From NCBI RefSeq assembly GCF_946886105.1, contig NZ_CAMPHV010000038.1:1-54253 (forward strand): DNA of 54,253 nt. Reading direction: 5' to 3'. Positions 1 to 17,650 of the stretch are shown here, piece by piece. The translations under genes were made by a program, and so were the position numbers. How positions within the stretch are numbered: position 1 is the stretch's first letter; each line of letters opens with the position of its first letter. Under the pieces are notes generated by a model, which had not been told where the DNA came from, did not search any database, and saw only the letters and a program-made list of their open reading frames with translations. The stretch is from an uncultured Pseudomonas sp. (lineage in GTDB: Bacteria > Pseudomonadota > Gammaproteobacteria > Pseudomonadales > Pseudomonadaceae).

Positions 1-54
1 CGCACCAGCCAAGACTTGCGGTGGCTCATGCCTTCATTAAACCGGACAGTAGTG
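1..54. mobile_element. Terminal fragment of an insertion sequence (right end)
   Basis: Positions 37-54 hold an 18-bp segment ending ACCGGACAGTAGTG. Its reverse complement recurs at 54200-54217 with 15 bp identical (CACTACTGTCCGGTT). Terminal repeats in opposite orientation at the two window edges mark the outer ends of two copies of one IS, whose bodies lie outside the window. Bases 1-36 are then the last bases of the left copy; one frame ends in TAA at 38-40, inside the repeat. The IS family cannot be named from this piece. Confidence 0.6.
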
Positions 55-63
55 ACGCAGCCC

Positions 64-2298
64 TTATTTGTTGAGGTGACGGAAGGTGCCGTCCCAGTCG
101 ACAGGCAGTTGCTGGTCGCGCAGCTCATGGATGCGCTCCCGGTAAATGCGGTACAGCTTGGCCTTGGGATGGGCGCTGCGCAGCTGTTCGAAACCCTGCT
201 CGGCCAACTCCCAGCGGCGTGCGCGGTAGTGCTGCAGCGCCGCCTCATAGCGCGCGAGTTCTTCGCGCAGTGCATCGCTCAATTCGCTAACAAGGCCGAG
301 CGGTTCGAAGGCATCGACCGGTTCGTTCTTGCCCTTCACCTGCAAACGGTCGATGAAACGAAAGGCGATATCGGCGTTCTCAGCGGCGGTATTGGCGCCG
401 ACGAGGATATGCACACCATAGAACTTGGTCAGGCTTTCCAGCCGCGAGCCAAGGTTCACCGCGTCGCCCAGCACGGTGTAGGCCTTGCGGTATTGCGAGC
501 CCATGTCGCCGACGTTCATAAAGCCGGTGTTGAGGCCGATGCCGATGTTGATTTCCGGCATATTGCGCGCGCGCAGCTCGCTGCGCAGGCGCTCGGTGAC
601 GGCGATCATTTCCAGCGCCGCCAGGACGGCATTGCGGCGGTGGTCCGGGTCGGCCAAGGGTGCGCCCCAGAAGGCCATGACCATATCGCCGACGTATTTA
701 TCGATGGTGCCGCCATGGCGGAAGATCACTTCGGTGATGGGCGTGAAGTAGAAGTTCAGCAGGGTCTTCAGGTCGGCGGCGCTGAGGTTTTCCGAAATAC
801 TGGTGAAGCTGCGGATATCGGAGAACAGCACGGTCATTTCCCGGCTCTGGCCCTCCATCGAATAGCTTTGCGGCGAGTCGAGCATCTGCTGAATATGCGC
901 CGCCGGCACGTATTGACCGAACATGCTGGTGACCGCCTGGCGCGCCCGGCTCTCGCGGACGAAACCCTCGAACATAAACCAACCGGCCAGCACCAGCACC
1001 AGCAGGTAGGTGCTGGCCAGGGGCAAATCCAGGCCGTTGCGCATCCACAGCAACAGATTCAGCCCGGTCCACCCCGCCAAGGCACCGAAACTCAGGCCCG
1101 CCTGCAACCAGGGCGAACGCCGCGGCATCAGCACGATCAGGAGCAAGCCGGTCAACAACAACTGCGTGAAGGTGACGCCGGGCTCCCAGGCCGGGCGATA
1201 GGGAAAGCGGCTGGTCAGCAAGCCATGGATCACGTTGGCGTGCACCTCGACGCCGGGAAAAGCCGTGGCCAACGGTGTGTTGACCAGATCGAAGAGGCCG
1301 ATGGCCGAGCCGCCGACCAGCACTATGGCACCTTCCAGGCCCAGTTCCGCAGCGGGTTCGCGCAGGATGCGCCAGGCCGGCAGATAGCGCACGGGCGCGG
1401 ATTGGCCATGGTAAGGCACCAGCACCCGGCCCAGGCCGTCGGTATACAGCGGCTTGTCGCTCAATTGCACGGCGGAAACCGCCAGCACGTCGCCGATGGC
1501 GGCAAAGCGCACGTCCAACTCCTCGACCAGCATAAAACTCATGGCCGCAGCCAGGGCCAGCGACGGATAGACCTGGCCGTCGTGGGCCATCAGCAAGGGC
1601 GTGCGGCGGATCACCCCGTCGGCATCGGCGAAAGTGGTGACGAAGCCGCCGCTGCGGGCGCCGCTGGCGATCAATGGAATATTGCCGGTGAAGCCGTCCT
1701 TGCTCAGGATCACCGGGGTTCCCTGCCCGGCCGCGGCCTGCTCCAAGGAGGCGACTGGCGGCGGCAGTTGCCCCGTGCGGTGCTCGGCGTGGTCCTGGAA
1801 GAAGAAGCCCAACACCGTATCCGTCCCCTGCAAGGCTTCGGCAAAACGACGGTCCGGGTTCCACTGCTCGCGCAACGCGGCGATCTGCGGCGCCGGCAGG
1901 CCAGTGCCGGGTTGCTGCTTCAGCCAGGCGATAAACGCCGACTCCTCCGGCTCGGCGAACACCACGTCGAAGGCGATCACCGTGGCGCCGGCTTGCGTCA
2001 ATTGCTCGGTGAGCAGCGCCAGCTTGTCGCGGCTCCACGGCCAACGGCCTTCGCGCTTGAGCGATTGTTCGTCGATATCGGCGATGACGATGGGCGCGGC
2101 CTGCGGCATCGGCTGGTAGTGGGCGCTGAGCCACATGCGCCAGTCGTACCAGATGAAATCCAGGCGATTGAGCAGGCTGCGGTCGGCCACCTGCGACGAC
2201 AACTGCAGGGCGACCACCAAGCCCAGGAGCAACACGCCGACCAGGCGCAGCCAGTGCCTGCGCAGAAGCGGCGCCTGCGCGACCGGCGCTGACCTCAA
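64..2298 (-). CDS. CHASE2-domain adenylate/guanylate cyclase (class III)
   Basis: A 744-aa membrane sensor cyclase. It has an N-terminal membrane anchor (about residues 14-35), an extracytoplasmic CHASE2 sensor (about 40-350), further membrane segments (about 375-450) and a C-terminal class III cyclase domain (about 485-665). The catalytic motifs are present: FSDIRSF just after Met488 (metal-binding Asp), DKYVGDMVMAFWG (Lys and second Asp) and VLGDAVNLGSRLE (transition-state Asn and Arg). It should make cAMP or cGMP in response to a periplasmic signal. The start is TTG; GGAG lies 7 nt upstream and no ATG fits as well. It is divergent from the Slam-like/FecR pair at 2412-5917. The ligand and the nucleotide made are inferred, not shown. 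Confidence 0.9.
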   Translation of the reverse strand: MRSAPVAQAPLLRRHWLRLVGVLLLGLVVALQLSSQVADRSLLNRLDFIWYDWRMWLSAHYQPMPQAAPIVIADIDEQSLKREGRWPWSRDKLALLTEQLTQAGATVIAFDVVFAEPEESAFIAWLKQQPGTGLPAPQIAALREQWNPDRRFAEALQGTDTVLGFFFQDHAEHRTGQLPPPVASLEQAAAGQGTPVILSKDGFTGNIPLIASGARSGGFVTTFADADGVIRRTPLLMAHDGQVYPSLALAAAMSFMLVEELDVRFAAIGDVLAVSAVQLSDKPLYTDGLGRVLVPYHGQSAPVRYLPAWRILREPAAELGLEGAIVLVGGSAIGLFDLVNTPLATAFPGVEVHANVIHGLLTSRFPYRPAWEPGVTFTQLLLTGLLLIVLMPRRSPWLQAGLSFGALAGWTGLNLLLWMRNGLDLPLASTYLLVLVLAGWFMFEGFVRESRARQAVTSMFGQYVPAAHIQQMLDSPQSYSMEGQSREMTVLFSDIRSFTSISENLSAADLKTLLNFYFTPITEVIFRHGGTIDKYVGDMVMAFWGAPLADPDHRRNAVLAALEMIAVTERLRSELRARNMPEINIGIGLNTGFMNVGDMGSQYRKAYTVLGDAVNLGSRLESLTKFYGVHILVGANTAAENADIAFRFIDRLQVKGKNEPVDAFEPLGLVSELSDALREELARYEAALQHYRARRWELAEQGFEQLRSAHPKAKLYRIYRERIHELRDQQLPVDWDGTFRHLNK

Positions 2299-2411
2299 CG
2301 GCTGGCTCCGGACAGTCGACGCATTATGAGCGATCGCAATAGTGGTAATTCCAAACCTGGCTCCTAGACTGGCAGAACAATGTCTCGTTTTGCAGGGAGC
2401 TCGACCGGCCA

Positions 2412-3767
2412 GTGATCAATGCATCCGCCTTGCCATCCGTTTTCTCTTCCAGGGCCCGCCAATGGATTGTCACACCTCTGACCTTGATCTGCCTGTGGAG
2501 CCCCCAGCTCAACGCGCAAACCTCTACCCCGCCCAACCAGCGTAGCCCAATAGTCCGCCAGCTCGCCGAGCTGATCGAACGCCAGGAACATGCCAAGGCC
2601 CATGAACTGGCCATGCAGCATGTGGCGAGCGAGGAAGGCGACCCGGAGTTCGATTTCTATTACGGCCTGGCGGCACTCGAGATGGGCCATGCCGAAGAAG
2701 CCAGCTTCGTCTTCGAGCGGCTGGTGGCGCTACACCCGGAGAACGACCGGTTTCGCCTGGAATACGCCCGCGCGCTGTATCAAATCAAGCGCCATGAAGA
2801 AGCTGAAAAGCAGTTCCGCCTGGTGCTGGAGCACAACCCGCCGACGGCGGTGGTCGGTAATATCGAGCGTTTTATCGACCATATCGTTGAGCAACGGAAC
2901 GACACGATCAAACGCTGGGAAGGCTTTGTCGAGATCGGCGGCGGTTACGACAGCAATATCAATAACGCCACCGGCGATCGCATCATCGGCCTGTTCGAGT
3001 TACCGGACAGCGCCGTGGAAATGGACAGTTCCTACCTCTCCGCCCGCACCCAGGCCAAGTACCACTGGCCGTTCTCCCAACGCAATCGCGCTTTCGTACA
3101 GCTGCAAAGCGAGCACAAGCACAACACCGAGAACAGCGATTTCGATCTGGATACCCTGGGCCTGACCACTGCCTGGGTACATCAGCGCGGCGCCGAGCAG
3201 TTCCAGGCCGGCCTGCAGTACCAGCACACCTGGCTGGACGGCGAAGCCTATCAACGCTCCAGCGGCGTCTTCGGCCAGTGGCGCCACTACTGGGGCACCC
3301 AGATAGCGACCACCCTGTATTCGGGGCTGGTCGACAAGCACTCCTTCCAGCTCGACGAGCTGAACGCCTGGCAACCGCTCGTCAGCGCACAGTTGCAGGT
3401 GCTCGACGGCAACTTCCTGCATCAGTTTTCCCTCGGCGGCGGCACCGAGAACCCCCGTTCGTCGAGTGGCCGGCATCTGGCCAAGGACTTCACCTTCGCC
3501 GGCTACCAGTTGCTCTGGCAAGCCTCCGAGTTGTGGCAACCCTATGCCGGCGTATCGGCTTTCAAGGGCCGCTACAAGGACGAACACCCGGTATTCGGCG
3601 AGCGCCGCAAGGATGACGCCTATCAATTCTCCATCGGCGTAACCAACCGTCTGGCCGAAAACCTGAACCTCACCCTGGAGACCAGCTACACCGATAACGA
3701 CAGCAACCTGAGTTTGTACGAATACACCCGCTGGCGGGTGGAGGCCCGTTTGCAGCGGGTGTTCTAG
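2412..3767 (+). CDS. TPR plus beta-barrel outer-membrane protein, Slam/DUF560 (type XI secretion) type
   Basis: 451 aa. A probable signal peptide ends near residue 35 (QLNA/QT). TPR-like helices span about 45-145 and an outer-membrane barrel about 170-451. The barrel opens with GGGYDSNIN (about 176-184), a motif I associate with the surface lipoprotein assembly modifier C-terminal family, and the protein ends in Phe, the usual C-terminal signature of barrel proteins. Slam proteins (N-terminal TPR, C-terminal barrel) move cargo across the outer membrane. The gene starts with GTG, its RBS is weak, and it lies 8 nt before the FecR-domain gene, so the two are almost certainly one operon. Assignment to the translocon family is by motif and architecture; cargo export is inferred. 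Confidence 0.75.
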   Translation: MINASALPSVFSSRARQWIVTPLTLICLWSPQLNAQTSTPPNQRSPIVRQLAELIERQEHAKAHELAMQHVASEEGDPEFDFYYGLAALEMGHAEEASFVFERLVALHPENDRFRLEYARALYQIKRHEEAEKQFRLVLEHNPPTAVVGNIERFIDHIVEQRNDTIKRWEGFVEIGGGYDSNINNATGDRIIGLFELPDSAVEMDSSYLSARTQAKYHWPFSQRNRAFVQLQSEHKHNTENSDFDLDTLGLTTAWVHQRGAEQFQAGLQYQHTWLDGEAYQRSSGVFGQWRHYWGTQIATTLYSGLVDKHSFQLDELNAWQPLVSAQLQVLDGNFLHQFSLGGGTENPRSSSGRHLAKDFTFAGYQLLWQASELWQPYAGVSAFKGRYKDEHPVFGERRKDDAYQFSIGVTNRLAENLNLTLETSYTDNDSNLSLYEYTRWRVEARLQRVF

Positions 3768-3775
3768 GAGGGGTC

Positions 3776-5917
3776 ATGAAGAAGTTGCCCTACTCGTTCG
3801 CAGCGCTCTGCTTGGTTCTGAGCCTGCTGCTATCGCCGGCCCACGCCGCCGAGGAGGCGGCCCAGGTGATTCTCGCCCGCGACGCCCAAGCGCTCGGCGA
3901 GGACGGGGTGGCCCGCAAACTGGCCCGGCGCGACAAGATTTTCGTCGGCGAGACCCTGACCACCGGCAGCGCCGGCATGCTGCAGGTGCGTTTCGTCGAC
4001 AAGGCGCTGCTGACGCTGCGCGAGAGCAGCCACTTCCGTATCGAAACCTATGCACCGCCCACCGATGGCGGCGGCAACGTCTTGATGCACCTGGTCGAAG
4101 GCGGCTTCCGCACCATCACCGGTAGCATCGGCAAGGGCTCGCAGGATTCCTACAAAGTCACCACGGGCGCCGCCAGCATCGGCATTCGCGGCACGCACTA
4201 CGAGGTGGTGCAGGAATCGGCCCAGGCCATAGTGGTGGCGGTATGGGACGGCGGCATCCGGGTCGACAACGAAAGCGGCAGCCTGGACCTCGGCCAGGAT
4301 ATGGATTTCAGCTACTCGCGGATCGAAACCGGGCAAGCGCCTGTCGGCCTGCTCGAGCCGCCCGCGGCATTTCAGCAGGGGCCGGTCGCGACGCAGAGCA
4401 GTCAGCCGGCCGATAGCGAAGCAGCGGTGGCAGAGAGCGGCAGCGGCTCGAGCAACTCCAGCTCCTCAACTTCAACCTCAACCTCAACCTCAACCTCAAC
4501 CTCAACCTCAACCGCCACCAGCACCACGACAGCAACCGGCAGCACGTCCAGCTCATTCACCGCCACGGCGCCCACAACCACCCAGACCAGCCTTTCGCCC
4601 ACACTAAGCTCAAGCACCACGATCGCCAGCCCGACGACGACAACCGCAACCCTGGATTTCACGGTCACCGATACGCAGTTGCAGGAAACCCTGGAGCCCA
4701 TCGAAACCGACCCGGTCGGCGATCCCTGGACGACCAAATCGACGGACGACCCGCGCCTGTTCGTCGCGGAGTTCGATCAGTTCATCGACCCCGCGCGGCG
4801 CGAGGCGGTGATCGTCACGCAGGACCCGGAGATCATCCTGGCGACGATCATCTCGCCGAACTCACCATCGCTGTACAACTTCGCCAGCAACGGCCCGGTC
4901 ACCTTCGATGTGACCTATTTCATCGACGATGGCACCTCGACACCGCCCACGAGCACGGTACCAGTGACCCTCGATAAAAATCATACCAGCCTGAACACCC
5001 TGCTGAGCGATATCCAGGAGCATCTGACCGCCGCCAGCGCACCGGTGGGCGTTCGCGAATCCACCTTTAATCCGGGGAAACTGGAGTTCTACACGGTGAA
5101 TCAAGCGGATATTCATTTGAATTTCAATCTGATCAACTTCGACTATTCGTCCAGTACGGCGCAACCGCTGGATGTGGCCGCCGCCCTCGGCGGCTTGGTG
5201 GAAGGGTCCTTCGCCGCAGGTCACCGGGACGGCTATCCGATGCGCGCCGCCGTGGTTTTCGGCCAGGACGGCAAGCCTTCCGCGTTCCTGGCGCCGGAAT
5301 TCAAATCGAACTCGACCGCCCAATCCGCCCTGGACGTTGGCCGCCAAGGCGGCGCGACATTAACGGATTACAACCCGACGGTAGGCGGGCGCAGCAATAT
5401 CAGTTGGGGAAGATGGGCCGCCTCATCGAGCAACCCGATCCATATCTATGGCGAGATAAACTCACCCGACACCATCACCTCGTTCGAGAGCGACTCGGCC
5501 TACTGGCTGACCGCCGAGGCGGCCACCGCCGCCCAGTTGACCGGCAGCCAAAGCTTTCAGATGGGCGCATCGCCGGTATTCCTGGGCACGGGTAGCGATG
5601 GCGCGGTGCAAGCCATGAGCGGCGGTTTCTCGGTCGATTTCACCACCGGCGCCATCAGCGGCGGCTCCTTGTCCCTGACCACCGCGAACCAGAACTGGAG
5701 CACCCTGTTCGACGGCAACTACAGCAACGGCCATGCACTGATGAAGATCCATACCGGCTATATCAGCGGCAACATCAATTGCACTAACTGCGTGACCGGC
5801 AGCATCAGCGGCGTCTTCGCCGCCCCGGGGGATCGTTTCGTCGGCGGCTATGACATGTTCAAGATCGGCCAGCCGACGGTGAACAACCAGGGCTTACTGC
5901 TGATGGAGCGCCAGTAG
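3776..5917 (+). CDS. FecR-domain exoprotein with Ser/Thr linker and TbpB-like C-terminal barrel
   Basis: 713 aa with a clear Sec signal peptide (cleavage near AHA/AEE, residue 24-25) and no lipobox Cys. Residues about 50-145 form a FecR domain ending in the characteristic [11 protein letters not shown] (135-144). A low-complexity Ser/Thr linker follows (about 205-300), partly made from a perfect hexanucleotide repeat. The rest is Gly/Ser/Asn-rich; the last 180 residues alternate Gly and hydrophobic residues and end in a segment ([19 protein letters not shown]) resembling the last strands of TbpB-type barrels, the usual cargo domain of Slam translocons. It lies 8 nt after the Slam-like gene. 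No sigma factor is adjacent, so a classical anti-sigma role is unlikely; I infer a surface or secreted protein. Confidence 0.72.
4466..4513 (+). repeat. Hexanucleotide microsatellite (TCAACC)8
   Basis: Eight tandem six-base units, the first with one mismatch (TCAACT), encode the Ser-Thr repeat of the FecR-protein linker. Because the unit is 6 bp, slippage would change linker length two residues at a time without breaking the frame. Confidence 0.9.
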
Positions 5918-5924
5918 CGGGTAT

Positions 5925-5946
5925 GCGCTGGCAAACCCGCCAGCGC
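5925..5946. terminator. Bidirectional stem-loop between convergent genes
   Basis: GCGCTGGC and GCCAGCGC form a perfect 8-bp stem around a 6-nt loop. It lies 7 nt past the stop of the FecR-protein gene and 2 nt past the metE stop. There is no strong T-tract on either side, so it may protect mRNA ends rather than act as a classic intrinsic terminator. Confidence 0.55.
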
Positions 5947-5948
5947 TG

Positions 5949-8270
5949 TCAGGCCGGCAAGGCCGCGCGCAACTGCCGCGCCGCCGCCACCATATTCACC
6001 AACGCCGCTTCGGTCTCCGCCCAGGCGCGGGTTTTCAGGCCGCAATCCGGGTTGACCCACAGGCGCTCGGCGGGAATCCGCTGGGCGGCTTTGCGCATCA
6101 GCTCGACCATCTCGCGGGTATCCGGCACCCGTGGCGAGTGGATGTCGTAGACCCCCGGCCCTATGTCGCTGGGGTACTCGAACGCCTCGAACGCTTCCAA
6201 CAATTCCATATCCGAGCGCGAGGTCTCGATGGTGATGACATCGGCATCCATGGCGGCGATGGCTTCGATCACGTCGTTGAACTCGCTGTAGCACATATGG
6301 GTATGGATCTGCGTTTCGTCGCGCACGCCGGAGGCGCATAGACGGAACGCCTCGGTCGCCCAGGCCAGATACTCCGCCCACTGTGCCTTGCGTAGCGGCA
6401 GGCCCTCTCGAAACGCCGCTTCGTCGATCTGCACGATCCTGATCCCGGCCGCTTCCAGGTCCCGCACCTCGTCGCGAATCGCCAGGGCCAGTTGCCGCGC
6501 CTGCTGCTCGCGTGAAATGTCTTCGCGCGGGAAGGACCACATCAGCATGGTCACCGGGCCCGTGAGCATGCCCTTCATCACCTTGCCGGTGAGGCTTTGC
6601 GCGTAGCGAATCCACTCCACGGTCATCGCTCGGGGACGGCTCAGGTCGCCGTAGATCAGCGCCGGCTTGACGCAGCGCGAACCGTAGCTCTGCACCCAGC
6701 CGAAGCGGCTGAAGGCGTAGCCGTCGAGCTGCTCGGCGAAGTATTCGACCATGTCGTTGCGCTCGGCCTCGCCGTGCACCAGCACATCCAGGCCGAGATT
6801 TTCCTGGACCTCGACCGCATGACGGATTTCGCTGTGCATGGCCTCGGTGTACGCGGCGGCCGACAACTTACCCTGCTTGAACGCCTGGCGCGCCAGACGA
6901 ATCGCCGCGGTTTGCGGGAAAGAGCCGATAGTGGTGGTCGGAAATGCCGGCAACCGCAAACCCGCGCGCTGCTTGGCGATGCGTTCGGCAAAGGGCGACT
7001 GGCGCTGGCTGTCGGCGTCGGTCACGGCCTGCACGCGGGCCTGCACCGTGGCGTTATGAATACGCGTCGAGCTGGCACGGCTGGCCTGCACCGCATCACT
7101 GGCGGCCAGAGCGGCCTGCACCTCGGCGTCCTGCGGTTGATTGAGGGCGCGGGCGAGGATCGCGATCTCGCCGCACTTCTGCGTGGCGAAGGCCAGCCAG
7201 CTGCGCAGTTCGTCGTCCAGCTGATCTTCGCGGGCTAGGTCCACCGGGCTGTGCAGCAGCGAACAGGAACTCGCCACCCACAGGCGCTCACCGAAACGCT
7301 GCTGCGCCTGGCGCAGTTGTTCCAGGGCCTGCTGCAAATCGCAGCGCCAGACGTTGCGACCGTTGACCACGCCGAGCGACAGCACCTTGTAGGCCGGCAG
7401 GCGATCGAGCAGCAGCGGCAGTTGCTCCGGCGCGCGCACCAGATCGACGTGCAAGCCGTCCACCGGCAGCCCTACCGCCAGGCTGAGGTTGTCTTCCAGG
7501 CCGCTGAAATAGCAGGCCACCAGCTTTTTCAACGGTGCGTGCTGCAACAGGTTGTAGGCGCGCTCGAAGGCATTCTTCCAGTCCTGGGGCAGGTCCAGGC
7601 CGAGGATCGGCTCGTCGATCTGCACCCACTCCACACCTTTGGCCGCCAGGCGCCCGAGAATCTCGCCATAGACCGGCAGCAGGCGGTCGAGCAGGTCGAG
7701 CTTGTCGAAGGCTTCCGTCTCAGCTGCGCTGCCTTTGACCTTGCCCAGCCACAGATAGGTCAGCGGGCCGATCAGCACCGGCTTGACCCTATGACCGAGG
7801 GCATGGGCTTCGTCGACCTCGTCGAACAGTTGCTCCCAGCTCAGCTGGAAACGCTGATCGACGCTGAATTCCGGTACCAGGTAGTGGTAGTTGGTATCGA
7901 ACCACTTGGTCAGTTCCTGCGCATGCTGCGTCTGGGCATGGGTGCCGCCACAGCAACCGCCGCTGGCACCGCGGGCCATGGCGAACAGGGTATCCAGGCT
8001 CGGCGTGCCCTGTGCCGGACGAAAGCGCTCGGGGATCACGCCAAAGGTCAGCGAGTGGCTCAACACCTGGTCGTACCAGGCGAAGTCGCCGACCGGCAGC
8101 AACTCGATGCCGGCGTCTTTCTGCACTTGCCAGTGGGCGGCGCGCAGCTCGCGGCCGACGGCGCGCAGGCCGGTCTGGTCCAGCTCGCCGCGCCAATAGG
8201 CTTCGAGGGCTTTCTTCAATTCGCGGTCGCGGCCGATGCGTGGGAAGCCGAGGGTATGGGCCAGAGCCAT
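5949..8270 (-). CDS. metE: Cobalamin-independent methionine synthase
   Basis: 773 aa from the ATG at 8270, where [13 protein letters not shown] matches the family N-terminus; GGAG lies 9 nt upstream, so the longer reading to 8315 is rejected. MetE transfers the methyl group of 5-methyl-tetrahydropteroyl-triglutamate to homocysteine in the cytoplasm. The zinc ligands are present: His658 and Cys660 in HTHMCYSEF, a Glu near 682 in [13 protein letters not shown], and Cys743 in NPDCGLKTR. They match His641, Cys643, Glu665 and Cys726 of the E. coli enzyme with a constant offset. Length is normal. Two candidate MetR boxes lie upstream at 8324-8336 and 8355-8367, and metR is 1.1 kb away. Organisms with both MetH and MetE normally use MetE when cobalamin is short. 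Confidence 0.97.
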
Positions 8271-8323
8271 GGGAACAATCTCCATATAAGTGATGAAGGG
8301 GATTGTCGGCGCCAATGCATAAG

Positions 8324-8367
8324 TGAAACAAACTCAAGATATTCGTGTTAAGCACAAATTATTTTCA
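8324..8367 (-). promoter_or_regulatory. Two tandem MetR-type boxes upstream of metE
   Basis: Read on the minus strand, 8336-8324 is TGAGTTTGTTTCA (one mismatch to the MetR consensus TGAANNTNNTTCA) and 8367-8355 is TGAAAATAATTTG (two mismatches). The boxes start 31 bp apart and lie 54-97 bp before the metE ATG. Two MetR sites before metE is also the enterobacterial arrangement. No convincing -35/-10 pair was seen between the boxes and the gene. Confidence 0.5.
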
Positions 8368-8460
8368 TAACAAATGGCGCCCACCATCCCGGATGAACCT
8401 CAAGGCCGGCCAGGACCTCCAAACTGCAGACCAGTGTTTTGCGGTATCGCCGGAATGGCC

Positions 8461-9343: not shown

Positions 9344-10261
9344 ATGTTGGAACTTCGCCACTTGAAAACCCTGCACGCGCTGCGCGAAAGCGAGAGCCTA
9401 GTGGATGCCGCCGAACGCCTGCACCTGACCCAGTCGGCGCTGTCGCACCAGTTCAAGGAGCTGGAAGAACGCCTGGGCATGCCGCTGTTCGTGCGCAAGA
9501 CCAAACCGGTGCGTTTCACCAGCGCCGGCTTGCGTTTGCTGCAGCTGACCGATGCCGTGCTGCCGTTGCTGCGTGCCGCCGAGCGCGATCTGGCGCGACT
9601 GGCCGGCGGCACCGCCGGGCGCCTGCATATGGCGATCGAATGCCACAGCTGCTTCCAATGGCTGATGCCGACCATCGATCAGTTCCGCGATGCCTGGCCG
9701 GAGGTGGAATTGGACCTTGCCTCAGGCTTCTCCTTCGCCCCGCTGCCAGCGCTGGCCCGTGGCGACCTGGACCTTGTGGTGACCAGCGACCCGCTGGAAC
9801 TGGCCGGCATCACCTATGTGCCCTTGTTCACCTACGAGGCCATGCTCGCGGTGGCCAACCAGCATGCGCTGGCCGGCAAGCCGTTTATCCAACCCGAAGA
9901 CCTGGCCAGCGAGACGCTGATCACCTACCCGGTGGAACGCGACCGCCTGGATATCTTCACCCGCTTCCTCGAACCCGCCGACGTCGAACCCGCCCAGGTT
10001 CGCACTTCGGAACTGACGGTGATGATGATGCAACTGGTGGCCAGCGGCCGCGGCGTCTGCGGCCTGCCCAACTGGGCGCTGCACGAATACAGCTCGCGCG
10101 GTTACGTCACGGCCAAACGCCTCGGCGAAAAAGGCCTGTTCGCCACCCTGTATGCCGGCATCCGCACCGATATGCTCGATTCGCCGTTTATGCGCGACTT
10201 CCTGCTCACCGCCAAGGACACCTCCTTCGCCAACCTCGAAGGGGTCAGCGTGGCGCGTTGA
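9344..10261 (+). CDS. metR: LysR-type regulator of methionine biosynthesis
   Basis: 305 aa. The N-terminal winged helix-turn-helix is LysR-type (about 1-65, DAAERLHLTQSALSHQFKEL) and is followed by a periplasmic-binding-like effector domain (about 90-295). Several stretches match MetR closely: MLELRHLKTLHALRE at the start, AIECHSCFQWLMP and SGRGVCGLPNWAL in the effector domain. MetR activates metE (and often metH) with homocysteine as co-effector. Start ATG 9344 has AGAGAAG about 12 nt upstream. In enterobacteria metR is divergent from and adjacent to metE; here an exoD-like gene lies between them. Confidence 0.93.
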   Translation: MLELRHLKTLHALRESESLVDAAERLHLTQSALSHQFKELEERLGMPLFVRKTKPVRFTSAGLRLLQLTDAVLPLLRAAERDLARLAGGTAGRLHMAIECHSCFQWLMPTIDQFRDAWPEVELDLASGFSFAPLPALARGDLDLVVTSDPLELAGITYVPLFTYEAMLAVANQHALAGKPFIQPEDLASETLITYPVERDRLDIFTRFLEPADVEPAQVRTSELTVMMMQLVASGRGVCGLPNWALHEYSSRGYVTAKRLGEKGLFATLYAGIRTDMLDSPFMRDFLLTAKDTSFANLEGVSVAR

Positions 10262-10283
10262 TCCGGCGCCGCAGCGGCGGATC

Positions 10284-10467
10284 AAGAGCATCGCGGCCAA
10301 GGCCGCTCCTACCTGAGATCGCGGTACCCCGGATTTCATCCGGGCTACAGGTTACACGCATCGCGGGCTGGTTCGATCCCAGAGCAAAACGCGATCCCGT
10401 AGCCCGGATGCAATCCGGGAAACAATCTTCGCCACAAAACCGCTCCCGGATTGCGCCAAGGCTTAAC
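10284..10467. repeat. REP cluster downstream of metR and cusA
   Basis: Several palindromic repeats fill the convergent gap: a GCGGCCAAGGCCGCTCCTAC-type copy near 10289-10309, CCGGATTTCATCCGGGCTAC at about 10328-10347, GTAGCCCGGATGCAATCCGG at about 10399-10418, and a partial copy (CCCGGATTGCGCCAAGGCTT) at about 10444-10463 that runs into the cusA stop. At least two REP families are represented. Confidence 0.75.
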
Positions 10468-13400
10468 CAGGTGACAGGTTACGCCTGCGCATCAGGCGAT
10501 AGGCCGCCGGCAATACGAACAGCGATAGCAGCGGCGCACTGAGCATGCCGCCGACCATGGGCGCGGCGATGCGGCTCATCACCTCGCTGCCGGTGCCGCC
10601 GCCGAGGAGGATCGGCAACAGGCCAGCGATGATCACCGCCACGGTCATGGCCTTGGGTCGCACCCGCTGCACCGCGCCTTCGCGGATCGCCTCGACCAGC
10701 GCCTGTTCGCTGCGCTCACCGGCTGCTTCGCGCTCGGTCCAGGCGTTCTTCAGGTAGAGCAGCATGATCACGCCGAATTCCGCCGCCACCCCGGCCAGGG
10801 CGATAAAACCGACGCCGGTGGCCACCGACAGGTGATAGCCGAGCAGGTAGAGAAACCAGACCCCGCCGGTCAGGGCGAACGGCAGCGTGGCCATGATCAG
10901 CAACGCCTCGCCGAAGCGGCCGAAGCACAGATAGAGCAGCACGAAGATGATCAGCAGCGTGGCCGGCACCACCAGCTTGAGCCGCGCGTTGGCCCGTTCG
11001 AGAAACTCGAACTGCCCCGAATAGCTCAGGCTGACGCCCGGTTGCAACTGCACCTGGGCCTCGATGGCGGCGCGCAGATCGGCCACCACCGAGGCCAGGT
11101 CGCGGCCGCGCACGTCGACATAGACCCAGCCCGAAGGCCGCGCATTCTCGCTTTTAAGCATCGGCGGACCGTCGCTGATGGCGATTCGCGCCACAGTACC
11201 CAGGGTGATCTGGCTGCCCTGGGGGGTGTAGATCGGCAACTGCTCGAGCCCGCTCAGCGAGTCGCGCCATTCGCGCGGGTAACGCACGCTGATGGGGAAA
11301 CGCGCCAAGCCTTCGACGGTTTCGCCGACATTCTCGCCGCCGATGGCGCTGGCCACTATCGCCTGCACATCGGCGATATTCAGGCCGTAACGCGCGGCCG
11401 CCGCGCGGTCGATATCGACATCGATATAGCGCCCGCCGGTCAGGCGCTCGGCCAGGGCCGAACTCACCCCGGGCACGGTCTTCGCGACCTTTTCGATGGC
11501 CTGGGTGGCCGCGTCGATCTGCGCCAGATCGCTGCCGGCGACCTTGACCCCGATCGGGCTCTTGATCCCGGTGGCGAGCATGTCGATGCGGTTGCGGATC
11601 GGCGCAATCCAGATATTGGTCAGCCCCGGTACCTGCACCACCCGGTCCAGCTCTTCCACCAGTTTTTCCGCGGTCATGCCGGCGCGCCATTGCTCGCGCG
11701 GCTTGAACTGGATGGTGGTCTCGAACATCTCCAGCGGTGCCGGGTCGGTGGCGGTCTCGGCGCGACCAGCCTTGCCGAACACATGTGCGACTTCCGGCAC
11801 GGTCTTGATCATCCGGTCGGTCTGCTGCAGCAGCTGCGCGGCCTTCTGCGCCGAGAGCCCGGGCAGCGCCGATGGCATATACAGCAGATCGCCCTCGTCC
11901 AGCGGCGGCAGGAACTCGCCGCCCAGCTGCGACAACGGCCACAGGGTGCTGAGAAACACCAGCGCCGCGACCGCCAGGGTGGTCTTCGGCCACGCCAATA
12001 CCGCATCCAGCGCCGGTTGGTAGACACGGATCAACCCGCGGTTCAGCGGGTTGCGTGCCTCATCGGGAATCCGCCCGCGGATCCAGTAGCCCATCAGCAC
12101 CGGCACGAGGGTCACCGACAGCCCCGCGGCCGCGGCCATGGCATAGGTCTTGGTGAAGGCCAGCGGGCCGAACAGCCGGCCTTCCTGGGCCTGCAGGGTG
12201 AACACCGGAATAAACGACAGGGTGATGATCAGCAGGCAGAAGAACAGCGCCGGGCCGACTTCCACCGCCGCGTCGGTAATCACCCGCCAATGGGTTTCGC
12301 CCTTGAGTTCCTCGCCGGGGTGCGCTTCGCGCCAGGCCTCGATCTTCTTGTGCGCGTTTTCGATCATCACCACTGCGGCGTCGACCATGGCACCGATGGC
12401 GATGGCGATGCCGCCGAGCGACATGATGTTGGCGTTGATGCCCTGCTGTTGCATGACGATAAAGGCGATCAGCACCCCGATCGGCAAGGACACTATGGCC
12501 ACCAGCGAGGAACGCAGGTGCCAGAGAAAAGCGGCGCAGACCAGCGCGACGACGATGAACTCCTCCACCAGTTTCTCGCCCAGATTGCGCACCGCGCGGT
12601 CGATCAAGCGGCTGCGGTCGTAGGTGGCGACGATCTCCACCCCGTCCGGCAGGCTGCTTTTCAATTCCTCAAGCTTGGCCTTGACCGCGTCTATGGTGCT
12701 GCGCGCATTCTTGCCGCTGCGCAGGATCACCACGCCGCCGACCACCTCGCCCTCGCCGTCCAGTTCGGCGATGCCGCGGCGCATTTCCGGGCCCAGCTGG
12801 ATATGCGCGACCTCGCCGAGGGTCACCGGAACGCCGCCGGCGTCCAGGCGTAGCGGGATGGCGCGAAAGTCGCTGAGGCTTTGCAAATAGCCCGAGGCGC
12901 GCACCATAAATTCGGTTTCCGCCAGCTCCAGCACCGCGCCACCGGTTTCCTGGTTGGCCCGGCCGATGGCCGCCGTCACCTCGGCCTGGGTGATGCCGAG
13001 GCTGGCCAGCTTGATCGGGTCGAGCTGCACCTGATACTGCTTGACCATGCCGCCGATGGTCGCCACCTCGGCGACGTTGGCCAGGGTCTTCAGCTCGAAT
13101 TTGAGGAACCAGTCCTGCAGTGCGCGCAGCTGCGCCAGGTCATGCTTGCCTGTGCGGTCGACCAGGGCGTACTGGTAGATCCAACCGACCCCGGTGGCGT
13201 CCGGCCCCAGCGCCGGTTTGGCGCTGGCCGGCAGGCGGCTCTGGATCTGGCTGAGGTACTCCAGCACCCGCGAGCGCGCCCAGTAGAGGTCGGTGTCGTC
13301 CTCGAACAGCACATAGACGAAGCTGTCGCCGAAGAACGAATAGCCGCGCACGGTCTTCGCCCCCGGCACCGAGAGCATGGTGGTGGCCAGCGGATAGGTC

Positions 13401-13594
13401 ACCTGGTTCTCGACGATCTGCGGCGCCTGCCCCGGATAGGGCGTGCGGATGATCACCTGCACATCGGACAGGTCCGGCAGCGCATCGATCGGCGTGTTCT
13501 GCAGCGACCAGACGCCCCAGGCGGTGGCGAACAGCGTCGCCAGCAGCACCAGGAAGCGATTGGCCACCGACCAGCGGATCAGCGCGGCGATCAT
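10463..13594 (-). CDS. cusA: Cu(I)/Ag(I) RND efflux pump
   Basis: 1043 aa, full length for the heavy-metal RND family, with twelve predicted membrane helices and two large periplasmic loops. The methionines that bind Cu(I)/Ag(I) in E. coli CusA are all present at the same numbers: Met573 ([10 protein letters not shown]), Met623 (PLEMFETT) and Met672 ([13 protein letters not shown]). The proton-relay helix reads [13 protein letters not shown]. This argues for CusA over a Zn/Co/Cd pump of the CzcA type. The ATG at 13594 overlaps the cusB stop by 4 nt, so the two are translationally coupled. The pump takes metal from the periplasm or inner membrane and passes it to CusC using the proton gradient. 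Confidence 0.95.
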
Positions 13595-15123
13595 GGCTGC
13601 GCCTCCTGATGGCCTTTATGCTCGCTACCTTGCTGAGCCGTGGGCGACAGATGCTCGATACGTTCGATCTGCATGCCCTCGTCGTCGGCGCGCACCCCAA
13701 CCCGCACCCGATCGCCGGGTTTGAAGCCTTCCAGCAGCGCCGTATCGGCGACCGGAAACAGCATACTCATGCCCGGCATACCCAGGGTTTTGAACGGACC
13801 GTGGGTGAGCATCACACCATCCTCTTCGATGGCGTCGATCTGCCCCTCGGCTTCATGCAGGGCCGGCTGCAGCTTGACCTCGGTCGCAGGCGCACCCAGC
13901 CCCTGAACCAGGATGCCGCGCAGGCTGGCTTCGGAGTCGAGCAGGAACTGCCCGGAGGCGACCACTTGCTGCCCCTCCTCCAGCCCTTCGAGGATCTGGC
14001 TATTGCCTGCGACTTCGCGGCCCAGGCGGACTTCCACCGGACGGAAACGCCCCTCGCCCTCGGCCAGCATCACCAGGGCGCGGCGACCGCTGCGGATCAC
14101 CGCCTCGCTCGGCACGAACAATCCATCGCCCTGGTCCGGGCGGGTCAGGCGCACCTGGGCGGTCAGGCCCGGACGCAAGCGGCCATCGGGATTATCCAGC
14201 TCGACCCGGACGCGCAGGGTACGGCTGTCCAGGTTGGCCTGGGGCAGAATCGCCTCGATGCTGCCTTCGAGCACTTCGCCGGGAAACGCCGGCAGCCGCG
14301 CCTCGACCCGCTGACCGCGGCGCAGGCCCTGGGCTTCGGCCTCGGGTACGGCCACGTCCAGCCAGACGCTACGCAGGCCGTTGATGGTCGCCAGCGGAGC
14401 ACCCGCCGCCAGGGTCATGCCCTCGCGCACATCGAGCTGTTGCAGCACACCGGCGATCGGGCTGGTCACGGTCCACAGCGCCTGCACCTTGCCGCTGCGC
14501 TCGAAGCGCGCGATCGACTCAGGCGGCATGCCGGCCAGGCGCAGGCGCTGGCGCGCCGCTGCCAGCAGCGCGGGATCGCCGGCATCGCGCAGCGCCAGGT
14601 ACTCCTCCTGGGCCGCGACCCACTCGGGCACCAGCAGGTCGGCCAGCGGCGCGCCGGCTTCGAGCAGGTCTTCGGCGGCGCGGGCGTAAACCCGCTCGAC
14701 GAAACCGCCGCTGCGCGCCTGCACCACGGCGATATCGCGGTTGTTGAAGGTCAGGTTACCGGTCGCTTCCAGGCTGTTGGTCAATGCCTCGCGGGTCACC
14801 GGGGCCAGGCGCATGCCGAGGTTCTGGGTGATGCTCGCATCGATGCTGACAGCGGCGCTGTCGCCCCCCTCATCGGCATAACGCGGCACCAGTTGCATGT
14901 CCATAAAGGGCGACTTGCCCGGCTGATCGAACTTTTGCTGCGGCACCATGGGGTCGTACCAATACAGCACCTTGCGCTCATCGGCGGCGCTGGGCTCCTC
15001 GGCGGCCACGGCCATCTCAGGCCCCTGACTCATCGATTGTCGGGCGAACCAGTAGCCTCCCGCCGCGCCTATACCCAGCACCAGCGTGGCCAGCAGCGTA
15101 GTTTTTACCAGTCGAGCGTTCAT
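13591..15123 (-). CDS. cusB: Cus membrane-fusion protein with N-terminal metal-binding and C-terminal CusF-like domains
   Basis: 510 aa, about 100 more than E. coli CusB. Order: signal/anchor (8-28), heavy-metal-binding domain (53-81, [14 protein letters not shown]... DMQLVP), alpha-hairpin, lipoyl and barrel adaptor domains (about 95-405), and a CusF-like OB-fold (about 425-495). In the CusF-like part His441 and Met452/Met454 ([14 protein letters not shown]) match the Cu(I) ligands His36, Met47 and Met49 of CusF, but the CusF Trp44 that caps the metal is replaced by Met449. The domain is therefore a fused periplasmic metallochaperone. The gene overlaps both neighbours by 4 nt. Confidence 0.93.
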
Positions 15124-16370
15124 TGGCCCACCTCTTCATAAGCGAAATGCAGGCGGGCACTGGTCAGCGCGCGCGCTTGTTCGAAGTCGATCTGTTGCAG
15201 GCGGGCCTCGATCAGCTCGCGGCGTGCGGCGATCACCTCGGCCAATGCAGTCGCACCAGATCTATAGCCAGCCAGCGTCAGCGCGACCTTCTCTTCGGCC
15301 AGCGGCACCAGCAGCTCCTGGCTGCGGCGCAGCGCGCGATCGAAACGCTGATACTCGGCCAGGTCGGCAGCCAATTGCTCGGCATGCTCGCGCTCGGCGG
15401 CTTCCCGTTCGGCTTCCAGCTGGCTGAGTGCGGCCTGTTTGGCGGCGATTCTGGGGTTCTGCCGCGAGCCCGGGAACAGCGGCAGATCGAAGCTCAATTC
15501 CAGCGAGACCATATCGCCGAAGGCCGGGTCGCGCTTCTGGTAGGCCAGCTGCCAGCTCCAGTCGGAGCGCTTATCCGCCACGGCCTGACGCACCTCGGCT
15601 TGCGCCGCCTCGGTCATCGGCTCGAACAGCGCCAGTTCGGGATGGCGTTGCAGGTTGTGTCGATAGTGCTCGGCATCCACCGGCCAATGCGGCAGGCGGC
15701 CGGACAGGGGTTCGACGGCGCGCGGGCCGACCCAGCGGCGCAGGGCGGCGCGTTGCTGGGCTCGATTTTGCAGCAGCAGGTCCTCGGCCTCGGCCAGCAA
15801 TGCGGCCTCCTGCTTGGGGGCGATGTTCTCGGCGGCCTGCCCTTGCCCGCCGGCGATGCGCGCGCGCACCGCCTTGGCCAGCAGATCGTTCTCCGCATAG
15901 AGGTGTTCGAACAGCGCGAGCTTCTGCTCCACGGCGCGCGTGGCTATCCAGGCCAACGCGGCTTGCCGACGCACCCGCAGGCGCTCGACCCGTTCCCGCG
16001 CGGCAGCGCTGAGCACGTCGGCCTCGGCGGCCTCGACCCGGGCGCGGCGTTTGGCGCGGTTGGGCACCTCCTGCATGACCCCGATCATCTGCATGGTCAT
16101 CGGCTCGCCGTCGAAGCGACCACGGTTGTCGCCCTCGATCGGCAGGTTCTGCACGCCGAGGGTTAGTTTCGGGTCGGGCAACTCGCCGGCCGGCACCGCG
16201 GCATGGCGCGCGGCCTGCACATTGGCCGCCTGGGCCGCCAGCGAGGGGGCTTCGCGCTCGGCCAGATCCAGCGCCTGATCGAGAGTCAGGGCCGCGGCCG
16301 GCAGGCTGAGCAAGACAGCGGCCAACGCACCGGCCAGAGAACGGCCGGGGGAGGGAAATAAAGCGTACAT
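15120..16370 (-). CDS. cusC: Cus outer-membrane channel (TolC family)
   Basis: 416 aa with a good Sec signal peptide (first 27 residues, ending LPAAALT) and no lipobox, then two outer-membrane-efflux repeats rich in long Ala/Glu/Arg coiled-coil helices, as in the TolC/CzcC/CusC family. It would form the exit duct of the CusCBA complex. It is the first structural gene of the efflux set; its stop overlaps the cusB start (ATGA). A 92-nt gap without a terminator separates it from the CopL-like gene upstream. Confidence 0.88.
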   Translation of the reverse strand: MYALFPSPGRSLAGALAAVLLSLPAAALTLDQALDLAEREAPSLAAQAANVQAARHAAVPAGELPDPKLTLGVQNLPIEGDNRGRFDGEPMTMQMIGVMQEVPNRAKRRARVEAAEADVLSAAARERVERLRVRRQAALAWIATRAVEQKLALFEHLYAENDLLAKAVRARIAGGQGQAAENIAPKQEAALLAEAEDLLLQNRAQQRAALRRWVGPRAVEPLSGRLPHWPVDAEHYRHNLQRHPELALFEPMTEAAQAEVRQAVADKRSDWSWQLAYQKRDPAFGDMVSLELSFDLPLFPGSRQNPRIAAKQAALSQLEAEREAAEREHAEQLAADLAEYQRFDRALRRSQELLVPLAEEKVALTLAGYRSGATALAEVIAARRELIEARLQQIDFEQARALTSARLHFAYEEVGQ

Positions 16371-16462
16371 ACGGGTGATTCCTGTCGATATCGCGCGCTA
16401 GCGGCACGCAACGGCCATCGAGTCGCCGGGGCTACACGATGGGATTTGCAACGGGACGGGAA

Positions 16463-16792
16463 TCAGGCGCGGGGTGGGCGCCAGGGGGCAAGCGAGGGTC
16501 GGGACAGGGGTTCGGCTTGGCTATACCACGGGCCGTTGGCGGCGGCCGGCAGCAGCTTGAGCTTCAGTCGATAGCCATCAGCCAAGGGCAGGCCGACGCT
16601 GGGGCATTTACTCATATCCGGGCACAGCTGCCCGCTGACTTGCATCGCCGCGTCGTCGCAGCAGTCGCTCGCCTGCGGTGCATCCTGGCTCATCGGGCAA
16701 GGCTCGACGACCAGCAGCGCGCTCGCCAGGCTCTGCAAGGGCAGAACCAGGGCCAGCAACAGCACCAGACAGAAGCGAGGGAAGGCGTTCAT
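16463..16792 (-). CDS. CopL-like small Cys/Met-rich periplasmic protein
   Basis: 109 aa from ATG 16792, where a strong signal peptide begins (MNAFPRFCLVLLLALVLPL); the longer reading to 16864 is unlikely. The mature part carries CPM, DCCDD and CPDMSKCP clusters and ends PWRPPRA. Short metal-binding proteins with this layout are common at the front of copper operons in pseudomonads and xanthomonads (CopL-like). I infer a Cu-binding or sensing role; no catalytic domain is seen. It is the first gene before cusCBA. No Shine-Dalgarno sequence precedes the ATG, and a candidate promoter lies so close that the message may be leaderless. Confidence 0.65.
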   Translation of the reverse strand: MNAFPRFCLVLLLALVLPLQSLASALLVVEPCPMSQDAPQASDCCDDAAMQVSGQLCPDMSKCPSVGLPLADGYRLKLKLLPAAANGPWYSQAEPLSRPSLAPWRPPRA

Positions 16793-16799
16793 GCCGGGC

Positions 16800-16845
16800 A
16801 GTCTAGCCGCACAGCAATCGCACGACAATTGATGGGTATCAATTG
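16800..16845 (-). promoter_or_regulatory. Candidate promoter and operator of the copL-like/cus operon
   Basis: On the minus strand TTGTCG (16828-16823) and TAGACT (16805-16800) are 17 bp apart. Overlapping the -35 is a perfect inverted repeat, CAATTGAT-GGGT-ATCAATTG (16826-16845). The -10 ends only 7 nt before the ATG. The repeat is a likely regulator site, but its protein cannot be named from sequence alone. Confidence 0.5.
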
Positions 16846-16939
16846 CCCGGCTTGGCGGTTTCACCCGCCCTAGCGAGTCCTTCCGATGTCAGGCAGCAGA
16901 GGAGATGCAAGCGCTGTTACAACTCACCGCTTGCCCAGC

Positions 16940-16972
16940 GTGACCACCAGTCATAGCATGACCGTCGGTCAC
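16940..16972. promoter_or_regulatory. Double palindromic operator upstream of tetR
   Basis: Two 13-bp boxes lie in an 18-bp repeat: TGACCACCAGTCA (16941-16953) and the perfect palindrome TGACCGTCGGTCA (16959-16971). Together they form a 33-bp interrupted palindrome (GTGACC...GGTCAC, 12 of 15 arm positions matching). The site ends 21 bp before the tetR ATG, which is typical of TetR autoregulation by two stacked dimers. Confidence 0.7.
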
Positions 16973-16993
16973 AACTTTCCGATACAGGTCCTT

Positions 16994-17650
16994 ATGCGCC
17001 TACAAGAGCAACTGTTCGAACAACGGGAAACCGCCATTCTCGCCGCCGCGCTACGGCTGTTCCGGGAACAGCCCTGGGACCGCGTGACCATCGCCGAAGT
17101 GGCGAACGCCGCGGGTATCGGCAAAGGCACCGTCTATAAGCACTTCGCCAGCAAGGAGGCGCTTTATGCGCGCCTGGCGCTCGACCTGAGCCACGCCAAT
17201 CTCGCCGAGTTGCGCGCCCTGCACGCCACTCACCCGCCGCAACAGGCGCTGCGTCTGGTATTGCGCCGGGCGTTCGAGCAGATGCTCGCCGACCCGATCC
17301 AGGCGCAACTGTGCCAACACTGCGACCGCCCGGAATTCCAGGAGCGTCTGGACGATTCCTATCGCCAGCAATTTTTCGAGCTGGAACATCAATTCCAGTT
17401 GTTTTTCGGTCAGATGCTCAACGACACCCTGGAAGGCCACAGTTTGAACCAGGCCGAGTGCCAGAACCTGCTGTGGGGTGTCGAGGCCTGCTTCAACGGG
17501 GTGATGGCGCGTATCGCCTCCGGCGGCTTCAGCCATTGGGCCGAATCCATCGCCCTGGACGAGTACTTTCACCGCGTGACCGACTTCATCATCGCCGGGC
17601 TGAACGCCCAGGCCGCCGCCGTTCTTGCCCAACCCGACCGTCACGAGTAA
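16994..17650 (+). CDS. TetR-family repressor of the adjacent RND pump
   Basis: 218 aa from ATG 16994, preceded by AGG 5 nt upstream; the reading from 16886 would run through the operator and is rejected. The helix-turn-helix lies at about 24-50 (VTIAEVANAAGIGKGTVYKHFASK) and is followed by a ligand domain with several Cys and many aromatic residues. It is the first gene of a tetR-MFP-RND operon: only 6 nt separate it from the membrane fusion protein gene. It probably represses the operon, including itself, at 16940-16972 and is released by a pump substrate. The ligand is unknown. Confidence 0.88.
   Translation: MRLQEQLFEQRETAILAAALRLFREQPWDRVTIAEVANAAGIGKGTVYKHFASKEALYARLALDLSHANLAELRALHATHPPQQALRLVLRRAFEQMLADPIQAQLCQHCDRPEFQERLDDSYRQQFFELEHQFQLFFGQMLNDTLEGHSLNQAECQNLLWGVEACFNGVMARIASGGFSHWAESIALDEYFHRVTDFIIAGLNAQAAAVLAQPDRHE

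Follow-up and report, generated by a model that had tools for sequence, protein, structure and literature searches.

A widespread translocon-FecR gene pair with a non-random link to CHASE2 cyclases and a proposed role as a split envelope receptor

Translocons of the type XI secretion system (T11SS; Slam, NilB and HrpB, with DUF560) have TbpB, haemophilin, NHBA and fHbp among their cargo. According to passages of PMC8406197, 14 strands are a trait of the outer-membrane family, soluble cargo carries a type I signal peptide without a lipobox, and in 2021 nine of the ten published T11SS clusters were without a characterised protein; a passage of PMC12282271 lists ten cargo groups, without FecR. 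In the parts of PMC7529298 that concern S. meliloti, the response to signal 1 requires NsrA as well as CyaK, and the NsrA barrel is placed at 600-1200 with the barrel loops as the sole surface part. A Campylobacterota cluster described in passages of PMC9239204 holds a CHASE2 adenylate cyclase, a phosphodiesterase, a FecR outer-membrane protein and a tetratricopeptide repeat (TPR) protein, proposed to act in one pathway, and the BiofilmReg operon, as described in part of PMC5192318, joins a LysM-FecR protein to a CHASE2 histidine kinase. Here we analyze a three-gene locus at positions 64-5917 of a 54,253-nucleotide stretch of DNA from an uncultured Pseudomonas sp. (contig NZ_CAMPHV010000038.1, positions 1-54,253; the whole stretch is referred to as the window). 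Gene 1, on the minus strand, encodes a CHASE2 receptor cyclase, and genes 2 and 3, divergent from it, encode a T11SS/Slam-type outer-membrane protein and a FecR protein predicted to be T11SS cargo.

Genes 2 and 3 resemble a T11SS locus in that a TPR-containing, 14-stranded protein of the PF04575 family is encoded beside a Sec-exported protein with a TbpB-type barrel, but the other end of the window protein is a FecR signalling domain, unlike in T11SS cargo. The locus as a whole resembles NsrA-CyaK, in which a FecR domain, TPRs and an outer-membrane barrel are likewise encoded beside a CHASE2 adenylate cyclase. The protein encoded directly upstream of cyaK in an S. meliloti pSymB record (L161) is taken to be NsrA from its place and its length of 1197 residues; its FecR domain spans 66-160 and its TPRs cover about 417-531. 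NsrA differs in being one chain with no SlipAM match, whereas the window has two proteins and an added TbpB-type barrel. NsrA is the best experimental precedent for the window locus, which can be read as that receptor in split form, with a T11SS-type barrel replacing NsrA's own.

The pairing of genes 2 and 3 was examined across the class using a translocon profile (A2), made from the window protein and 19 of 64 matches spread over the list, to search 369 class genomes. At E <= 1e-10, 73 of the 369 genomes were matched. At E <= 1e-50 there were 61 matches, 60 of them taken before the neighbouring genes had been looked at; the remaining one (L145), with 1 nt downstream, was added later. Three of the 60 strong loci end less than 400 nt downstream and were left out, giving 57 testable loci. 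A FecR open reading frame (ORF) lies on the same strand within at most 400 nt in all 57, with distances measured between open-frame edges and not start codons (picked starts were up to 818 nt apart), and in a single case (L088) it lies upstream. FecR ORFs were detected with our own profile of 12 close relatives and then with a profile from the partners. Weak A2 matches were FecR-paired in 4 of 26 cases (L129, L130, L134 and L157); the strong/weak split at 1e-37, used here and for the cyclase counts below, was drawn after looking at the data. Pfam, which was run on the partners and not on the weak loci, recognised FecR at E <= 0.01 in 71/71 partners, a set that includes the window protein and had been preselected with our FecR profile. 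Median pairwise identity among the 60 translocons is 27%, and clustering at 50% divides them into 46 groups, so the pairing is not one clone counted repeatedly. The translocon-FecR pair is a deep, widespread family.

The count was repeated phylum-wide, with a forecast of 90% pairing and a refutation line of 60% set beforehand. The repeat was run with n = 400 and a looser E limit, against the n = 300 declared, and 16 of the 21 new matches were read, each with about 2 kb downstream. A FecR partner was found for 6 of 8 matches at E <= 1e-50 and for 6 of the next 8 (12/16 overall). The two strong misses (L240 and L241) have a long ORF in the FecR slot with no Pfam FecR and no barrel-profile match; both are cut by the end of the stretch, and by eye the start looks barrel-like in both and the N-terminus of L240 looks FecR-like. 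No cargo-like ORF was present in the stretch read at L247. At L248, one of the weaker misses, the ORF at 758-2758 joins a lipase-like region (Lipase_3, 18.4 bits with a cut-off of 22) to a TbpB_B_D barrel (38.5 bits with a cut-off of 26). This fusion suggests that such barrels, attached to a variety of other domains, are what these translocons serve; the main text of PMC12282271 does not contain the word "lipase". The order translocon-FecR-CHASE2 on one strand was found at 5 of the 16 loci.

Gene 2 (2412-3767, plus strand) has a GTG start and encodes 451 residues. The product matches PF04575 (SlipAM, Slam/DUF560) at 34.9 bits, with a cut-off of 22, over the full profile (1-288 of 288), and its structure model has a mean predicted local distance difference test score (pLDDT) of 88.6. 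In the model, N-terminal TPR helices (a TPR domain at about residues 49-144, 2556-2843, periplasmic by family) precede an outer-membrane barrel at residues 168-451 (2913-3764), which has 14 strands by DSSP and ends in a C-terminal Phe. The protein falls below the cut-off of PF24575 TPR_Slam (24.9 against 35.2 bits), a shortfall that points to a separate branch rather than arguing against PF04575 membership. By family, gene 2 encodes a T11SS-type translocon, which would act in export. The best VIA matches are CymA and OmpG, both 14-stranded barrels, and no Slam structure is among the best 50 matches of either fold list. Searches of PDB sequences with single proteins of the locus gave no Slam or cargo match, and a PDB search with the translocon profile gave TPR-type proteins and OmpX. 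Foldseek places two exopolysaccharide channels, BcsC and PelB (9b8h, E 1.6e-11; 9h80, E 2.3e-10), first for the translocon model, and these are likewise TPR-barrel proteins; unlike these channels, gene 2 is named SlipAM by Pfam and its model has 14 strands, 16 being given for PgaA in passages of PMC8406197.

Gene 3 (3776-5917, plus strand) follows after a gap of 8 nt (3768-3775) and has its own ribosome site, GGAGGGG, which starts at the last base of the gene 2 stop codon. Its 713-residue product begins, by eye, with a type I signal peptide lacking a lipobox (about residues 1-25, 3776-3850), followed by a FecR domain (residues 60-161, 3953-4258; Pfam 48 bits with a cut-off of 24), a disordered Ser/Thr-rich linker (residues 201-324, 4376-4747; pLDDT <50 throughout), a middle pedestal- or handle-like region (residues 326-535, 4751-5380; assigned from the structure model and a profile) and a C-terminal TbpB-type barrel (residues 575-713, 5498-5914). 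Residues 56-203 match the fold of the PupR cell-surface-signalling domain. The middle region is modelled well over about 350-480, with profile matches confined to close relatives. By fold the C-terminal barrel matches TbpB, NHBA, fHbp and haemophilin; its family-profile matches are TbpB, NHBA and haemophilin. It is an eight-stranded TbpB-type barrel of the kind found in T11SS cargo. Pfam TbpB_B_D and FHBP_C gave no match in the window protein at E <= 1, and among 39 related C-termini TbpB_B_D matched two at E <= 0.05. A match to the LapA-type retention module, which belongs to a different secretion route, was below the family cut-off. The original prediction had described a TPR and barrel protein 8 nt before a secreted FecR protein with a Ser/Thr linker and a TbpB-like C-terminus, and had called for structure prediction, a TbpB-barrel profile search and a co-occurrence check; the PF04575 score, the 14-strand model, the fold and profile matches of the barrel, and the neighbour counts bear out this part of it.

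The named near homologues of the gene 3 product are annotated "FecR family protein" and come from uncultured Pseudomonas sp. Among 199 genomes of the genus of G001 (Pseudomonas), a full-length match to the FecR protein was found only in G001, and its occurrence there is patchy. A scan of genome contigs with the C-terminal alignment, whose patterns were narrow, gave only 5 loci, and whole-genome searches were therefore used. A C-x-x-C motif at 5780-5791 (residues 669-672) lies before a barrel strand and is invariant in 12 aligned close relatives; it may form a structural disulfide or bind a metal. The FecR protein (3776-5917) also has weak Foldseek matches to FliD (E about 0.015-0.07), which perhaps concern the middle region.

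Barrels were scored in 70 FecR partners, three of which had tails too short, leaving 67. After profile iteration, a barrel was recognised near the C-terminus in 48 of the 67; no reversed or shuffled tail matched at E <= 1e-3, and one reversed tail matched at 0.003. Among the other 19, L089 and L096 are cut by a contig end and L059 may be, L084 gains a barrel on re-examination, and L076, L077 and L159 carry one on a neighbouring ORF. Ten short partners (<380 residues, contig-edge cases excluded) have no barrel in their own chain, two of them having one on a neighbouring ORF. Taken with the 57/57 pairing, these barrel-less short partners indicate that FecR, and not the barrel, is the constant element. 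LysM is present in 3/71 partners at E <= 0.01 (best 4.1e-7).

The partners vary in other ways. FecR partners at L073 (G247; 10232-14305 and 14444-17575), L069 and L075 have two to four tandem C-terminal barrels, and in G247 two tandem-barrel FecR genes adjoin and are followed by a convergent CHASE2 cyclase. The FecR partners of about 250 residues at L112, L113 and L114 are encoded directly behind the translocon gene and have no barrel and short Cys-containing tails. At L159 (5040-7657), from a Thalassolituus bin, two overlapping frames carry the FecR and barrel parts separately and are either split genes or a broken gene.

Gene 1 (64-2298, minus strand) encodes a 744-residue receptor cyclase of the class III nucleotide cyclases, with both PF05226 (CHASE2, 193.1 bits) and PF00211 (class III cyclase domain, 72 bits) above cut-off. 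The CHASE2 sensor domain, a periplasmic domain, spans residues 29-385 (1144-2214) and has hydrophobic transmembrane-like segments at both ends by eye; the catalytic domain spans residues 485-659 (322-846). The cyclase motifs (metal Asp, Lys, Asn and Arg) seem by eye to be present. Linkage to such cyclases was counted in loci flanked by 8 kb or more in each direction, and a CHASE2 cyclase was found nearby in 17 of 37 strong loci against 2 of 18 weak loci; both of the linked weak loci (L130 and L134) are also FecR-paired. The orientation of the linked cyclase varies, being divergent upstream, convergent downstream or in line. Viewed from the cyclase, a FecR ORF lies within about 7.5 kb in 13 of the 40 strongest CHASE2 loci, 6 of which have the translocon too. 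The cyclase link is real and non-random, and it is not obligatory. Six FecR-less CHASE2 cyclases (L198, L207, L209, L215, L217 and L221) lie near a second CHASE2 ORF of about 850-900 residues, and these paired ORFs perhaps belong to a different system.

Related gene groups differ from the window locus in composition. On a Paracoccus plasmid (L162) a TPR gene, a FecR gene and a CHASE2 cyclase gene stand in one row; the TPR protein scores 14.9 for SlipAM, short of the cut-off of 22, and TbpB_B_D is matched at 22.1 bits with a cut-off of 26. A cyclic nucleotide-binding, patatin-like phospholipase is encoded near these genes (1212-3038 of L162) and is a possible output of the cyclic nucleotide. 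The Campylobacterota cluster, compared here by description only, shares the CHASE2 cyclase, FecR and TPR genes, but in the passages of PMC9239204 its TPR protein is not called a T11SS translocon, nor FecR its cargo. In BiofilmReg a FecR gene also adjoins that of a CHASE2 sensor; unlike the window locus, the output is a histidine kinase, and the operon as described in part of PMC5192318 has no translocon gene.

We propose a three-part envelope relay as the best explanation of the locus as a whole, and give it an even chance of being correct. The 14-strand SlipAM barrel with its TPRs would act as a T11SS translocon, a role suggested by its family, and would engage the C-terminal TbpB-type barrel of the FecR protein. 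The barrel and the middle region would be passed to the surface and could there meet a ligand, and the N-terminal FecR domain would stay periplasmic near the translocon TPRs, with the disordered linker as a tether running through or beside the translocon. Ligand binding or the translocation state would then alter the contact of FecR with the periplasmic CHASE2 domain, which would switch the cytoplasmic cyclase and so the level of cyclic AMP or cyclic GMP; at loci without a linked cyclase, FecR may report to another inner-membrane sensor. The FecR-CHASE2 step is proposed because of the gene linkage and the genetics of NsrA and CyaK. With its barrel loops as the sole surface part, NsrA would have its FecR and TPR parts on the periplasmic side, where CHASE2 also lies, and this led to the proposed topology with barrel outside, FecR inside and linker between. 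The NsrA architecture, the LysM variants and the barrel-less partners all point to a FecR that is periplasmic, the C-terminal part alone being outside. The surface-displayed FecR sensor of the original prediction is not supported as put, for a wholly exported FecR could not reach the CHASE2 domain, which is periplasmic. More tentatively, and with less than even confidence, we suggest that the translocon brings just the C-terminal sensor half of the cargo to the surface, that the stalled, membrane-spanning cargo is the signalling link to CHASE2, and that FecR is the main cargo class of a large T11SS branch without a tested member; if true, this would represent a new class of envelope receptor.

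Several observations weigh against the relay. All verified T11SS cargoes that we know of are exported whole. The resemblance of gene 2 to BcsC and PelB means that the TPR-barrel fold alone is no proof of protein export, and in the 19 of 67 pairs without a recognised barrel in the main scoring it may be that, in some, nothing is exported. No CHASE2 cyclase lies within about 9 kb in 20 of the 37 full-flank strong loci. The phylum-wide count of 6/8 was under the forecast, while above the refutation line. The NsrA chain gave no match to SlipAM in Pfam at E <= 1. Weak NCBIfam matches include Leptospira LipL45 and Lsa33, the latter a named surface adhesin. Passages of the T11SS literature describe surface or secreted cargo and no split protein.

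One alternative is a plain T11SS pair, in which the whole FecR protein is exported and then released or held at the surface. FecR would then serve outside the cell as a stalk or as an adhesive beta domain, and the cyclase would be a frequent, unrelated neighbour or would control expression. The type I signal peptide without a lipobox (by eye) is as passages of PMC8406197 describe for soluble cargo, the barrel is homologous to that of T11SS cargo, the cyclase is missing from those 20 loci, and the repeated barrels of some partners suggest an adhesin-like surface protein. We regard this explanation as possible but doubtful, given that the cyclase is tied to FecR-paired loci, that LysM occurs in some FecR partners, and that NsrA, in the passages of PMC7529298, joins FecR and TPRs to a barrel whose loops alone are at the surface. 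The same NsrA topology would suit a different alternative, an NsrA-like receptor without export, in which the SlipAM barrel serves as receptor at the surface and all of the FecR protein, including its barrel, acts in the periplasm as a messenger that connects the TPRs to CHASE2. The constancy of FecR across the 57 loci, set beside the 19 barrel-less tails, is consistent with such a messenger; the retention of a TbpB-type barrel, the part common to T11SS cargoes, in 48 tails, the SlipAM membership of gene 2, and the lipase-like cargo of L248 make it unlikely. Classical FecI/FecR cell-surface signalling with the sigma-factor gene elsewhere, which the FecR domain and the PupR fold match would suit, is highly improbable, because by eye a signal peptide replaces the cytoplasmic anti-sigma domain and transmembrane helix, no anti-sigma or other Pfam domain is found there, and, in agreement with the original prediction, no sigma factor is encoded among the next four genes downstream of gene 3.

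Those four genes encode a methionine synthase, an ExoD-family protein, a LysR regulator and an AcrB/D/F-family pump, and none looks part of the system. The divergent intergenic region (113 nt, 2299-2411) has no sigma-70-like promoter and no CRP-like site, and CRP control through a divergent promoter was dropped for the latter reason; the whole window has 8 CRP-like matches with 13 expected by chance. Over positions 1-8400, sigma-70-like promoters number 0 with 1.4 expected, and terminators 7 with 6.9 expected.

Of the overall reading originally put forward, the T11SS pair with a FecR cargo-type protein stands, as does a non-random cyclase link; the whole-surface FecR does not, nor does the isolated novelty, since the pair is deep and widespread and clusters of CHASE2, FecR and TPR genes are already described in Campylobacterota in passages of PMC9239204. 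The pairing of FecR with CHASE2 (passages of PMC5192318) and the CHASE2/phosphodiesterase/FecR/TPR cluster (PMC9239204) are thus already known. We found no paper joining FecR to T11SS in the main texts covered, and an entry in a supplementary table may exist; neither "FecR" nor "CHASE2" appears in the main texts of PMC12282271 and PMC8406197, and "FecR" is likewise absent from that of PMC5449769. What seems new is that the TPR protein is identified as a T11SS-type translocon and the FecR protein as a cargo-type partner to it, together with the depth of this pairing and the split-receptor hypothesis.

The branch with 57/57 pairing gives uncharacterised T11SS translocons a concrete partner to test, and indicates a possible role for T11SS in signalling, beyond the binding of nutrients or hosts. 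For CHASE2 cyclases, it suggests a component acting upstream. Three separate published strands, T11SS, NsrA-CyaK and the Campylobacterota cluster, are joined into one testable scheme.

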